From contig CAMPCK010000079.1 in assembly GCA_946645735.1 (NCBI GenBank), positions 1 through 5,474 on the forward strand: a stretch of DNA of 5,474 nucleotides, in the 5' to 3' direction. Each line of letters starts with the position of its first letter. The first letter of the stretch is position 1. Made by a program: the position numbers and the translations under genes. The notes under the pieces were generated by a model, which was not told the DNA's origin, ran no database searches, and saw only the letters and a program-made list of their open reading frames with translations. Shown here one piece after another: positions 1,032 to 5,075 of the stretch. This stretch comes from an uncultured Clostridia bacterium. GTDB taxonomy: Bacteria > Bacillota_A > Clostridia > Peptostreptococcales > Anaerovoracaceae.

Positions 1032-1078
1032 AAGAACATTTCAGGCCGTCTTCCTCGCGAAGGCGGCTGTTCTTTTTT
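1032..1078 (+). terminator. Intrinsic terminator of the rplK-rplA operon
   Basis: Seen: an upper stem of nine pairs (1045-1053 with 1059-1067, one G-T) closes a five-base loop. A lower stem, AAGAACA (1032-1038) with TGTTCTT (1068-1074), continues it, and the left arm has a six-base bulge TTTCAG (1039-1044). Six T residues follow at 1073-1078. It lies 25 bases after the rplA stop and separates the ribosomal operon from the two genes downstream. Confidence 0.88.
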
Positions 1079-1167: not shown

Positions 1168-1953
1168 ATGATTAAATGTACAAAAGAAAACGCGCAGGAG
1201 ATTTTTGACTATATCGGTAAAGATTACGGCAAGTGTGCCTATCTTTATATTGATCTTAAAAAGTACGGATTTGATAACGAGAATGTGAATATCTGGTACC
1301 AGAAAGAAGAGGACCGGATCAAAGTGCTGATGTTCCAGTACTACAACGGCATGCATGTTTTCAGCCGGGATAATATCTTTGACGCGCAGGATGCCGCAGC
1401 CCTCATTGAGGAGAGAAAGCCGGCTCTGGTGTGCGGTATGGGAGAGACGATCAGCCAGATCAAACCATTTGTTTCCGAGGAAGAGTATGAGCCGGAGTAC
1501 GGCGATGTTGTTCGGTTGGAAGAATACAATGGGATTGCCGGAGACGACGTATATCTTGCTTCCCGGGAAGAGCTGAAGGAAGTTGCCCGGCTGCTGGCTG
1601 AGGATGAAGAACTGGGAGGACCTTACGGGTTTGACCTGCTTTACAAGCAGCTGCTGGAGAGATATGATGACGGATTCGGAAGAAGCTGGATCAGAAAAGA
1701 TGAGACCGGCGTGATCTCACACAGTGCAACTTACGCAGAGAACGAGGACCTGGCCGTGATATCCGGCAGTATTGTCAGACCGGACCATCGGGGCAGAGGC
1801 GAGTTTGCGGGCCAGCTGGGCGCAACATGCCGGGACCTTCATAACGAAGGCAAGGAAGTGATTTCCTATCTTTATGACGAGAGAGCCAAAAGGACGAATT
1901 ATAAAGTAGGATTCCGGGTACTTGGTGAATGGGCGAAATTGATTCGAAAGTAA
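1168..1953 (+). CDS. GNAT-family acetyltransferase (C-terminal GNAT domain, about 130-residue N-terminal extension)
   Basis: Predicted to transfer an acetyl group from acetyl-CoA to an unknown acceptor in the cytoplasm; no signal peptide or membrane segment is visible. The 261-aa product has a recognisable GNAT core at about residues 130-261: strand and pyrophosphate-loop motif VRPDHRGRGEF (203-213), helix AGQLGATCRDL, then the late motif NYKVGFRVLGE (244-254) with Tyr245. R208-x-x-G211 fits the acetyl-CoA loop, but Phe213 stands where Gly or Ala is usual. Residues 1-130 alternate predicted strands and helices (for example NVNIWYQ, IKVLMFQYYNG, ALVCG) and may be a worn GNAT-like lobe, as in double-GNAT proteins; that is inference. 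ATG 1168 follows GGGAG (1156-1160) by seven bases. The LicD gene begins 11 bases after the stop, so the two are almost surely co-transcribed. The substrate cannot be told. Confidence 0.8.
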   Translation: MIKCTKENAQEIFDYIGKDYGKCAYLYIDLKKYGFDNENVNIWYQKEEDRIKVLMFQYYNGMHVFSRDNIFDAQDAAALIEERKPALVCGMGETISQIKPFVSEEEYEPEYGDVVRLEEYNGIAGDDVYLASREELKEVARLLAEDEELGGPYGFDLLYKQLLERYDDGFGRSWIRKDETGVISHSATYAENEDLAVISGSIVRPDHRGRGEFAGQLGATCRDLHNEGKEVISYLYDERAKRTNYKVGFRVLGEWAKLIRK

Positions 1954-1964: not shown

Positions 1965-4826
1965 ATGAATCCGATGCATGAAGAAATCCTGATGATGCTC
2001 AAGGAGATTGATGCCATCTGCAGGAAATACGATATAACATACTATGCAGCCGGGGGAACAACGATCGGCGCGATCCGCCATCGCGGTTTCATTCCCTGGG
2101 ATGATGATGCAGATATCTATATGACGAGGCAGGAGTTCCTCCGCTTCCGCGAAGCGTTTAAACAGGAACGGCCCAAGGATCGTGTCCTGGAATCCACCAT
2201 GGATAATGACTATTATCCGGCGACCATTCCCAGGTATATTGATGACACGACAACCATGGTCGGAAAGTTCCATGTCCTGAATACATGCTCTGCCGGCATG
2301 GTGATCGATGTGTTTATCCTGGATCCCGTTCCGGACGATGAGGAAGCACAGAGAGAATATATTGCCAAGCTGTTCGTATATTCTGATTTTGTCATGCCTT
2401 ATTACATGTACAGCCTGAGGACAGATGACAAGTACCTGGAACTGTACGACCACTATAAGCAGATCGAGAAGGAAGAAGGCAGGATCAAGGTTCTTCGGCT
2501 CCTCGAGAAAGAACTGTTCTGCCATCGGGAGGAGGACTGCAACCATTATGTTCTTCGATGGGGAACCCTTCCTCACGTGTTTAAGAAAGAAATGTTCGGG
2601 GAACCCATTTATTTTGACTATGAGGACATGCAGATCCCGCTTCCGAATATGTGGTATGAGTATCTGGTCCAGCTCTACGGTCCCAAGTGGATGTACATTC
2701 CCTACCATGACGACCAGGCAGCTCACAGCCATATCATAGATATTGAGCACAAATACACCAATTACCTGATCGACGCAGATCGTTTTATCCCTAAGGAAGA
2801 GACATTGGAACTCTATCGGGAACGAAAGGTCAATAATATCCACAGAAACCAGAAGCTCAGACCTTACCAGAATTATGTCACGATGGAGAATCGGGGAGCG
2901 ATTCTGGCAGCGCAGAGGAAGTACGAAGAGCTTAACGGGATCGACATGGAAGCCCTCTTTGAAAAGAAAGCTTACGGAGAGGTTGTGACCGGTTTTGGCA
3001 AGTATCTGAGCTACCAGCTCAGCACCAACTATATCGGAGCGATGAGGCACAGCCAGATGTACCGTTTCCGCAACAGGATATTTATCCCTCTGGAAGACGA
3101 CAGACTGTATATGCTCCTCTATTCCCTACTCATGACCGGCCAGTATGCAAGGGCCAGGACTCTGGCAGACCTCCGAAAGAAGGAAGGGCCTCTTGGCGAT
3201 GATCTGAAAGCTGTGGACGAGAAGATCACTCTGGTCTATGATATCTTCCAGTCATTTTATTCTGAAGATTATGACAGGACCCTGGAACTGATCGGCCGTC
3301 TGGAAGAAAATGAACAGGAAAGCATGTCGGATATCATCAAGATGCAGCTGCAGATCCATATTGCTTCCGTGGACAGTGATGAAGCAGCCAAGGTGATCGG
3401 CGAGGTGGAGAGTCTCGTTAAAAACTTCCCTGATGACGCAGAGTATCAGAAGATCCTTGGAGACTACTATTTTAAAGCCGGGGAACCGGATGTGGCCAGG
3501 GAATGTTATGAACAGGCAGAGCCTGGGCTTGCAAACGGGATGATGCTGCTGGATATCGCGGATAAGATGGGCATTGAACCCAACTATGATACCCAGGACA
3601 GACCGGAACTTCTGAACCCCATCCAGATGGAACAGCAGAAGCTGCTTGCCGAACTGGATGCCCTGTGCAGGAAATATGGCATCAAGTATAATCTTTACGG
3701 TAAGTCACTCTGGTATGCATGGTACCTGAACAGTTTCCCTCCGAACAACTATGCGACGATCATCATGACGCCGGAGAATGCCAAAGCCTTCCTTGCGGCC
3801 TTTGAGAAGGAACAGCCCAAAGACAGAAGGCTGAACTATGCCATGAATAATGAGGACCATCACTCCTTTACGATCGATTATGTCGATGACGGATCCACCC
3901 ATATTTTCTGGCAGTATCCGGAGAATATCACGTCTATGTACGTCCGGATCTATATTCTGAAGCATGTTGATAAGAATAAAATGAAGATGCGCCAGGTGAG
4001 ACTCATGGATACCGCCCTGGCTGTCAGAAGAGAAAGACTCGGTGATGACAAGAAAAAAGAAGGCTTATGGCATAAGATCATAACCGCGCCCATGTATCTT
4101 GTGTACGGCAAGCGGAAGCTGGCGGCTAAAGTTTTTGAGGCTTATCTCAATATGGAGCCCAAGAAGCCGGGAAGCGGCTATTTCCTGACGGAGTCGGATG
4201 CCACCAGAAGTTACGGAAAGAAGATGAAGGCGGTCTATTTCGATGAGCCGGATGAGTTAGAGTTCCAGGGACTTAAGTTATTTATTCCCTGTAATATGGA
4301 ACGATACCTGAAAGATTACTACGGCGTGGATCCGGAATTGAAGCACAAGCCGGAGAGTGCCGCTCTGAAGCCTATGGCCTTTGTGGACTGCGATATCTCC
4401 CCGGAGGAGTTCCTTGAGGTGGCGAATACGGAAGTCCATGATATGAAGATCTATCAGGACTACCTGGAAGGCATGGAGATGACGGATGATATCAGAGCCT
4501 TCAACAAAATGGTCCGCCATAACATCGCGATCCTTCACCGGGCAGAAGACCGGTTCAAGCTCTATCTGGAATATATGCCTATGAAAGAAGAGATCATGGA
4601 AGCATATAAGAAAGAAGACGTAGAACGGCTGGATATCCTCTTTGAAGACTATTATGCCAAGGCGAAGCATAATCTTCATTATCATAATCTGGGAATCTAC
4701 TTTGATCCGGATATCTTCGAGGCTTTCCTCTACTGCCTGCGCAATACCAAGCATAAGAGGATGGCGGAACGGCTGGAAGAGTCGATACCGGAAGAGCATC
4801 TGGAGCCGATTCAGATCCTCGATTAA
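1965..4826 (+). CDS. Double LicD-family protein: active-type N-terminal LicD domain, TPR-like linker, degenerate C-terminal LicD domain
   Basis: LicD proteins belong to the nucleotidyltransferase-like fold and move phosphocholine or similar phospho-groups from CDP-activated donors to glycans. This 953-aa product has LicD domain 1 at about residues 15-258: G30-G31, RHRGFIPWDDDAD (D46, D47, D48, D50), VIDVFILD (D115), and the late PLPNMWYEYLVQLYG block. Helices follow to about 405, then a TPR-like stretch whose best unit is residues 492-523 (L498, G499, Y502, A511, Y515, A518). Domain 2 (about 564-805) repeats CRKYGIKY, QPKDR, YVDD and the MERYLKDYYG block, but NNYAT (594-598) replaces DDDAD and R661 replaces D115, so it should be catalytically dead. 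A helical tail like that of copy 1 ends the protein. No membrane segments are seen, so it is probably cytoplasmic. The acceptor is unknown. It is coupled to the upstream acetyltransferase, and no terminator follows it. Confidence 0.9.
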   Translation: MNPMHEEILMMLKEIDAICRKYDITYYAAGGTTIGAIRHRGFIPWDDDADIYMTRQEFLRFREAFKQERPKDRVLESTMDNDYYPATIPRYIDDTTTMVGKFHVLNTCSAGMVIDVFILDPVPDDEEAQREYIAKLFVYSDFVMPYYMYSLRTDDKYLELYDHYKQIEKEEGRIKVLRLLEKELFCHREEDCNHYVLRWGTLPHVFKKEMFGEPIYFDYEDMQIPLPNMWYEYLVQLYGPKWMYIPYHDDQAAHSHIIDIEHKYTNYLIDADRFIPKEETLELYRERKVNNIHRNQKLRPYQNYVTMENRGAILAAQRKYEELNGIDMEALFEKKAYGEVVTGFGKYLSYQLSTNYIGAMRHSQMYRFRNRIFIPLEDDRLYMLLYSLLMTGQYARARTLADLRKKEGPLGDDLKAVDEKITLVYDIFQSFYSEDYDRTLELIGRLEENEQESMSDIIKMQLQIHIASVDSDEAAKVIGEVESLVKNFPDDAEYQKILGDYYFKAGEPDVARECYEQAEPGLANGMMLLDIADKMGIEPNYDTQDRPELLNPIQMEQQKLLAELDALCRKYGIKYNLYGKSLWYAWYLNSFPPNNYATIIMTPENAKAFLAAFEKEQPKDRRLNYAMNNEDHHSFTIDYVDDGSTHIFWQYPENITSMYVRIYILKHVDKNKMKMRQVRLMDTALAVRRERLGDDKKKEGLWHKIITAPMYLVYGKRKLAAKVFEAYLNMEPKKPGSGYFLTESDATRSYGKKMKAVYFDEPDELEFQGLKLFIPCNMERYLKDYYGVDPELKHKPESAALKPMAFVDCDISPEEFLEVANTEVHDMKIYQDYLEGMEMTDDIRAFNKMVRHNIAILHRAEDRFKLYLEYMPMKEEIMEAYKKEDVERLDILFEDYYAKAKHNLHYHNLGIYFDPDIFEAFLYCLRNTKHKRMAERLEESIPEEHLEPIQILD
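1968..3170 (+). repeat. Internal duplication, unit 1 (LicD domain plus helical tail, intact acidic motif)
   Basis: Residues 2-402 of the LicD protein. It aligns with unit 2 at 3615-4778: NP..(10 residues)..L.KEIDAICRKY against the equivalent segment ending LDALCRKY, ERPKDR against EQPKDR, YIDD against YVDD, YFDYEDMQIPLPNMWYEYL against YFDEPD..FIPCNMERYL, and MEALFEKK against MEAYKKED in the tail. The acidic motif is encoded at 2100-2114. The copies are diverged in DNA, apart from short runs such as TGCAGGAAATA, so the duplication is old. Confidence 0.75.
3438..3533 (+). other. TPR-like repeat segment linking the two LicD halves
   Basis: Residues 492-523 fit the 34-residue TPR pattern: Leu and Gly at positions 7 and 8 (498, 499), Tyr at 11 (502), Ala at 20 (511), Tyr at 24 (515) and Ala at 27 (518). 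Flanking residues, about 380-490, are helical with weaker TPR-like spacing. TPRs bind proteins or peptides, so the linker may hold a partner or set the geometry of the two halves. Confidence 0.6.
3615..4778 (+). repeat. Internal duplication, unit 2 (LicD domain plus helical tail, catalytic acids lost)
   Basis: Residues 551-938. Around the active site the two units align without a gap at a constant offset of 548 residues (G31 with G579, M53-T54 with M601-T602, QERPKDR with KEQPKDR). In that frame D46, D47, D48 and D50 correspond to N594, N595, Y596 and T598 (codons 3744-3758), and R38 to W586. D115 corresponds to R661 (codon 3945-3947) after a two-residue shift. The structural blocks remain, and the frame is unbroken. 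Confidence 0.75.
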
Positions 4827-4848: not shown

Positions 4849-4877
4849 TTGACAAACGATTCGGTGGATGGTATTCT
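4849..4877 (+). promoter_or_regulatory. Strong sigma-A promoter of the rplJ (rplJL) operon
   Basis: A perfect -35 TTGACA (4849-4854) and -10 TATTCT (4872-4877) are separated by exactly 17 bases. The 24 bases upstream (4825-4848) are very AT-rich, like an UP element, as expected for a ribosomal protein promoter. Transcription should start near 4883-4886. The -35 begins only 22 bases after the stop codon of the LicD gene. Confidence 0.88.
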
Positions 4878-4882
4878 CTTTG

Positions 4883-5000
4883 GGTACGAACGCCGAAGAC
4901 AGCAGGTGCCGGATGGCATAAGTGGATACGCCTGCCGAGGAAGTTTATTCATTTTTTTTATCATGGAGCGCGAGCCTGTGATAGATGTGATGATATTATG
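4883..5000 (+). ncRNA. L10 leader: ribosomal protein L10(L12)4-binding mRNA element
   Basis: The 5' leader of rplJ has the marks of the L10 leader family. The conserved strands CGCCGAAGACAGCAGG (4891-4906) and CCTGCCGAGGAAG (4931-4943) face each other, with GCAGG/CCTGC (4902-4906, 4931-4935) as stem, flanked by the GA-rich sides typical of the kink-turn. A small perfect hairpin, TGCC-GGAT-GGCA (4907-4918), lies inside. Known in Bacillus: bound L10-L12 complex favours the downstream terminator, lowering rplJL expression when L10 is in excess. A possible antiterminator pairing is GGAGC (4965-4969) with GCTCC (5000-5004), which would use the left arm of the terminator; this part is inference. 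Confidence 0.85.
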
Positions 5001-5027
5001 CTCCCCGTCTTTGGACGGGGAGTTTTT
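5001..5027 (+). terminator. Attenuator terminator of the L10 leader
   Basis: A perfect nine-pair GC-rich stem, CTCCCCGTC (5001-5009) with GACGGGGAG (5014-5022), a TTTG loop and five T residues (5023-5027) form an intrinsic terminator inside the leader, 67 bases before rplJ. It is the switch of the L10 attenuation system. Since no other terminator follows the LicD gene, it would also stop transcripts arriving from that operon. Confidence 0.92.
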
Positions 5028-5075
5028 CCGTTTGTCGCTCCCTGCGGCAGCTGAGCGTCGGTACACAAATTTTTT

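Follow-up and report, generated by a model that had tools for sequence, protein, structure and literature searches.

The DNA window analysed here is a 5,474 nucleotide stretch from an uncultured Clostridia bacterium (contig CAMPCK010000079.1), and all of its features described below lie on the forward strand. It encodes a 953 amino acid (aa) protein in a single open reading frame (ORF; positions 1965..4826) that contains two LicD domains, the first bearing the catalytic acids of the family and the second having lost them. The protein could be divided into an active LicD domain (residues 1–262; 1965..2750), a linker with TPR-like helices (residues 263–551; 2751..3617) whose TPR-like matches lie inside residues 446–520, a pseudo-LicD domain (residues 552–815; 3618..4409) and a helical C-terminal domain (residues 816–953; 4410..4823) that is common to split pseudo-LicD genes, as seen in alignment A2. 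The LicD family (Pfam PF04991) comprises phosphocholine and alditol-phosphate transferases, with FKRP among its relatives, and its enzymes modify teichoic acids and capsules as well as, in humans, dystroglycan, the target of FKRP and fukutin (in part PMC11666461). To our knowledge, characterised members of this family have one active LicD domain. No LicD protein other than that of the window turned up in the genome assembly searched, which is 87.5% complete and shows 9 base differences from the window over 5474 positions.

Both halves of the protein match the LicD family profile. Copy 1 scored 125.9 bits in the genome search (cut-off 22.6) and 130.7 bits when the whole protein was used, and carries the DDDxD motif, here DDDAD (residues 46–50; 2100..2114), together with the third metal-type acid D115 (2307..2309). 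Copy 2, in the same frame as copy 1, scored 28.2 bits (E 1.8e-6) in the genome search and so exceeded the same cut-off without the catalytic acids, while profile–profile comparison of the two copies (hhalign, homologue set) aligned 226 columns with an E value of 1.2e-16. Judged from these sequence comparisons, copy 2 is a LicD member by fold and not an active LicD. An original prediction made from the DNA alone had described an unbroken frame in which D46, D47, D48 and D50 of copy 1 face N594, N595, Y596 and T598 of copy 2 and D115 faces R661, and our alignments agree with it on each of these points. Its further claim of a constant, gap-free offset of 548 residues between the copies through the active-site region held at residues 594–598 (NNYAT in place of DDDAD; 3744..3758) and failed at residue 661, where the offset is 546, with a one-residue gap near residue 598. 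At this second offset D120 of copy 1 faces K666 of copy 2, and the segment from R661 to K666 corresponds to 3945..3962. The Mf1-type cholinephosphotransferase model NF045866 scored 81.3 bits, below its equivalog cut-off of 225. When the sequence was searched against the PDB, the single hit was a weak one to Fukutin-related protein (E 0.029).

Conservation of the catalytic residues was surveyed in homologues of the full-length protein. Our search returned 24 proteins, one of which (P0002) is identical to the query, 20 are further full-length homologues of 934–966 aa (P0003–P0022), one (P0023; 746 aa) stops inside the second LicD, and the remaining two are glycosyltransferase-LicD proteins with much lower scores. 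In the resulting alignment A1 (query and 21 homologues, 22 rows), D46, D47, D48, D50, D115 and D120 of copy 1 were invariant, whereas in copy 2 the position of D50 was D in 0/22 rows and E in five (P0016, P0017, P0019, P0020 and P0023). A recent random loss of the acids in one strain was rejected, as the homologues in this alignment lack the acid set in copy 2. The survey was widened to dead domains of other origins, where the placement of single residues depends on the alignment. In a first table of 28 dead domains (16 fused, 6 split and 6 of 10 database proteins) D occurred at position 50 in none, E at position 50 in five, D at position 48 in one and D at position 115 in three, with K or R at the D120 position in 23; a second set of eight domains from the window's genus (L175–L180, L182 and L183) contained no DDD.D pattern, one D at position 50 (L175) and K or R at the D120 position in four. 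Taken together, the 36 dead domains had D at position 50 in one case and at position 48 in two, with both in none. By comparison, all 37 active domains had D at positions 46, 47, 48 and 50, and position 115 was D in 35 and E in two. These counts bear on the idea that the second domain is catalytic through migrated residues forming another acid set, which could draw on the E at the D50 position in A1 or on the D at position 115 in the first table; we consider this highly improbable, as no common replacement acid appeared at the six tabulated positions, to which the search was confined.

Comparison of loci demonstrated that the same pairing of active and dead LicD occurs in fused and in split forms. 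Scanning 187 loci for the active LicD-TPR half with a profile gave 24 rows, two of which (L131 and L002) are pieces of the window, leaving 22 distinct loci, some of which were examined over a longer span. Of these, L033 and L181 are truncated by the end of their contig, and the other 20 were judged. A dead partner was present at 19 of the 20 judged loci. It was fused to the active half at five (the window, L174, L113, L114 and L175) and encoded separately at 14, either behind the active gene (L115, L035, two pairs in one cluster at L161, L176–L180 and L182–L184, with the dead frame of L184 extending to the contig end) or, in the reverse order, ahead of it (L034 and L036). The stop-to-stop frames of the split halves lie -112 to +80 bp apart. 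A gene broken by a frameshift at L116:6388-9436 (genome G205) was left out of the locus count. A search with the dead-domain alignment additionally returned ten stand-alone proteins of 399–467 aa, one of which (P0026) is probably the same protein as the product of the L035 gene, given the same length and scores. Fused and split forms are equivalent, and the existence of a separate dead gene at 14 loci makes it likely that the dead half acts as a protein partner.

The origin of the dead domains was examined in two trees, in both of which long branches lower the certainty of deep placements and neither of which includes the dead domains of L174–L184. The careful tree held 60 domains and left out the dead row with the longest quick-tree branch (SP_L161a) as well as several fused and database rows. 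Here 17 window-type dead domains, fused and split, formed one clade (100/99), and 11 TPR-type active domains formed another (99/93) that is sister to the dead clade (99/93), which indicates one old duplication; on this phylogeny the dead half is genuinely derived from a duplicate of the active half, though a very ancient one. Because fused and split dead domains fall in one clade, the idea of a recent duplication inside the gene was abandoned. The quick tree (65 rows) agreed only partly, as 23 TPR-type active domains were grouped (97) and the dead domains stood apart from all active ones (99), but did not form one group.

The ratio of non-synonymous to synonymous substitution (dN/dS; Nei-Gojobori) was calculated for pairs of related genes. 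For the split pair from genomes G699 and G683, the dead gene had a dN/dS value of 0.094 and the active gene 0.084, with frames taken from the first possible start codon that may include some non-coding sequence. For G687 and G690 the values were 0.120 in the LicD-like part and 0.191 in the C-terminus of the dead gene, and 0.058 in the LicD and 0.158 in the rest of the active gene (dS up to 2.0), while in G686/G690 three of the four parts were saturated and the fourth, the dead C-terminus, gave 0.268. Values of 0.09–0.19 in two pairs indicate that split dead genes are maintained, and loss of catalytic residues together with purifying selection, as expected for a pseudoenzyme, was found on these split relatives; decay was accordingly rejected for the split genes. 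The reading of copy 2 in the original prediction as a maintained pseudo-enzyme domain is thereby supported, both by homologues that lack the acid set in copy 2 and by selection on split dead genes, the latter also answering the suspicion of unconstrained evolution for the split domains. The roles that the prediction put forward for this domain, namely acceptor recognition, allostery or pseudo-dimer formation, are hypothetical. A decaying duplication relic, retained only because the frame passes through it, could be reconciled with the low identity of copy 2 among homologues (0.281) and with one locus (L162) that has no dead LicD. We regard it as very unlikely, since the dead domain is an independent gene at 14 loci, two measured split dead genes have low dN/dS values and the dead domains share a single old origin.

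A second lineage of dead LicD domains was also identified. Proteins of about 1030–1050 aa in L179 (3476-6604), L180 (10517-13609), L181 (1515-4637) and L187 (6415-9564) each contain four LicD-fold regions, the first three without the motif and the last with it, and a further member in L186 is cut at the contig end. Profiles of regions 1–3 matched the LicD profile with E values of 8e-16, 7e-16 and 2e-17. Among the best 120 of 154 homologues of these arrays, where active denotes the motif pattern only, 59 had three dead domains and one active, 43 one dead and one active, nine two dead and one active, and one four dead and one active, with seven having two motif-bearing domains and one having none. 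Fusions to PF01128 or PF04464 domains occur in some array proteins. Array-dead domains formed one clade in the careful tree and array-active domains another, and these two clades joined in a single group separate from the window type; by this topology dead LicD domains arose a second time, independently.

Domain arrangements and conservation values also bear on whether the helical C-terminal domain is the working part, with the dead LicD mostly a spacer that delivers it. Locus L162 (G639) fits this idea, as LicD-TPR is followed there only by a 116 aa ORF (6134-6484) that matches the C-terminal domain, and mean pairwise identity in A1 (P0023 excluded; 0.595 for the first LicD and 0.305 for the linker) is higher in the C-terminus (0.338) than in copy 2. 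Yet the dead LicD is present at nearly all judged loci, the C-terminus of the G687/G690 dead gene is less constrained than its LicD-like part (0.191 vs 0.120), and in the second lineage dead LicDs stand ahead of the active one. A spacer function is therefore rather unlikely.

Genes neighbouring the module were mapped, where the 22 loci represent 21 places because L161 holds two. Enzymes of a type that makes cytidine diphosphate (CDP)- or cytidine monophosphate (CMP)-activated donors occurred in 15 of the 21 places, and the other places include contig ends. Cytidylyltransferase/GFO_IDH fusions adjoin the pairs in L115, L036, L161, L162 and L175–L178, which suggests a CDP-linked donor. Model TIGR01518 scored the L115 and L036 fusions below its cut-off. 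The same fusion was also seen at L120, and a thiamine pyrophosphate (TPP) enzyme lies near it in L115, L162 and L175–L178. IspD-like genes were found in L035, L179 and L180; L035 has in addition a fused nucleoside triphosphate (NTP)-transferase/choline-kinase-like gene, and L184 has separate genes of both kinds. L113 contains an NTP-transferase-like gene that matches an L034 protein with 56 bits, L034 has an NTP-transferase/aminotransferase about 3 kb away, and L114 has on the opposite strand a phosphoenolpyruvate (PEP) mutase with a cytidylyltransferase domain, a phosphonopyruvate decarboxylase (Ppd) and PhnW. In the window's genome a cytidylyltransferase/GFO_IDH fusion is found on a separate contig (C109), and as a first guess this could be the donor enzyme of the window protein.

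On balance we consider it probable that the window protein is an active/inactive LicD pair in one chain, in which the pseudoenzyme is a partner of the active LicD that deals with the acceptor polymer. The N-terminal LicD, with DDDAD and D115, would take a phospho-group from a donor activated by CDP or CMP and attach it to a surface polymer as this grows, and the second LicD fold, its metal acids lost, would pair with the active half as a pseudoenzyme, with the TPR-like linker and the helical C-terminus serving as a frame. The dead fold probably takes the place of a second dimer subunit, and it probably holds or positions an acceptor chain rich in phosphate; at the D120 position it often has a basic residue. 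Fold homology, loss of the acids, a single deep origin, the equivalence of fused and split forms, purifying selection on the split genes and donor-type company are the observations behind this proposal, from which we infer the physical pairing, the acceptor role and the exact donor. Alternatively, the dead half may be a sensor that still binds a nucleotide or CDP-donor, does not catalyse, and instead controls its active counterpart: the fold is kept, the old site is often basic, and dead paralogues are reported to activate live partners elsewhere (PMC5201418), but no data here tie the dead domain to regulation, and we consider a sensor unlikely. It is also doubtful, though conceivable, that dead LicDs serve generally as a module for polymer handling that arose two or more times, once as a single dead LicD paired with an active LicD-TPR and once as one to four dead domains ahead of an active one; the number of dead domains would then set the holding or length of the acceptor chain.

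Several observations weigh against the proposed active/inactive pair. Divergence is much faster in copy 2 than in copy 1 (identity 0.281 vs 0.595), and in the window/G693 comparison all four parts were saturated at synonymous sites, with a proportion of non-synonymous differences (pN) in copy 2 of 0.412 vs 0.800 for synonymous differences (pS), so that the dN/dS values given above come from split genes only. The dead domain of L175 has D at position 50, and a basic residue at the D120 position is not universal (27/36 overall). Matches of the linker to TPR families (E 8.8e-5 to 0.27) all fell under curated cut-offs, the best reaching 23.3 vs 23.5 bits, and no donor enzyme lies inside the window. 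The loci counted above are not independent, as the window's genus contributes 12 of the 22 and several supplied rows of the profile, and L162 has no dead LicD at all. Among class genomes with full-length LicD-TPR, a dead LicD is consequently found in two of three (G000 and G644, but not G639).

The distribution of the module is patchy. In the window's genus 14 of 24 genomes matched the query, with LicD-only matches counted, and 12 of 24 hold LicD-TPR, though many of these genomes are incomplete and a genome without a match is no proof of absence. Across 299 genomes of the family, matches spanning residue 5 to at least 531 were found in G226 (two) and G263 besides G000. Full-length LicD-TPR occurred in G000, G639 and G644 (two copies) among 391 genomes of the class and only in G000 among 398 genomes of the phylum. 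In a search with the dead-domain alignment, no other genome extended past model position 300 among the matches listed.

Within the window, the gene sits between rplA (ribosomal protein L1; 276..1007; TIGR01169, 335.3 bits) and an L10 leader RNA (4875..5038; Rfam RF00557, 67.9 bits), the latter followed by a gene that we take to be rplJ. A terminator-like hairpin (1044..1068), found by pattern scan only, follows rplA, and a GNAT-like gene (1168..1953; Pfam 14.1 bits, below cut-off) lies directly upstream of the LicD gene. GNAT-like genes were found beside the module in L033, L034, L113 and L116 as well as in the window, and one is fused to the end of the module in L114. The module is often situated among ribosomal protein genes, for example after rplK-rplA in L174 and, as judged by eye, upstream of nusG-rplK-rplA in L115, and a gene beside the module in L182 and L183 is presumably secY-like. 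Elsewhere in the genus, a candidate rplJ-like match (43–47% identity) lies about 0.3 kb (L250 and L251) or 1.2 kb (L241 and L243) from rplA.

Our literature search, in which coverage of subscription journals was poor, brought up no paper in which a LicD is partnered by a dead LicD. Inactive and active nucleotidyltransferase domains are combined in TUT4/TUT7 and OAS, which like the window protein hold an inactive fold of the same superfamily in the chain; these proteins are however eukaryotic, act on RNA or nucleotides and are not LicD proteins. The closest biochemical parallel found is Cps7C, which combines a TPR part with an FKRP-like nucleotidyltransferase domain; its donor is a CDP-polyol and its acceptor a polyol-phosphate, with D247 and D293 essential (PMC11666461). 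Cps7C thus resembles the window protein in having a TPR part and a LicD-related domain with two essential aspartates, but its TPR part is N-terminal and the accessible text mentions no dead second domain (PMC11666461). In phosphonate tailoring systems, PntC cytidylyltransferases occur with LicD-like transferases, so that cytidylyl activation lies near LicD as it does at L114, and, unlike the window type, no dead LicD partner is named in the accessible part of that report (PMC6697681).

In summary, the dead half looks like a retained partner and not junk, and the fact that dead LicD partners arose twice, independently, suggests that this solution is useful. Some proteins labelled only 'LicD family protein' (for example P0027) look non-catalytic. 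As the same active/inactive pair exists both fused and as two genes, removing the dead gene would directly ask what a dead transferase does.

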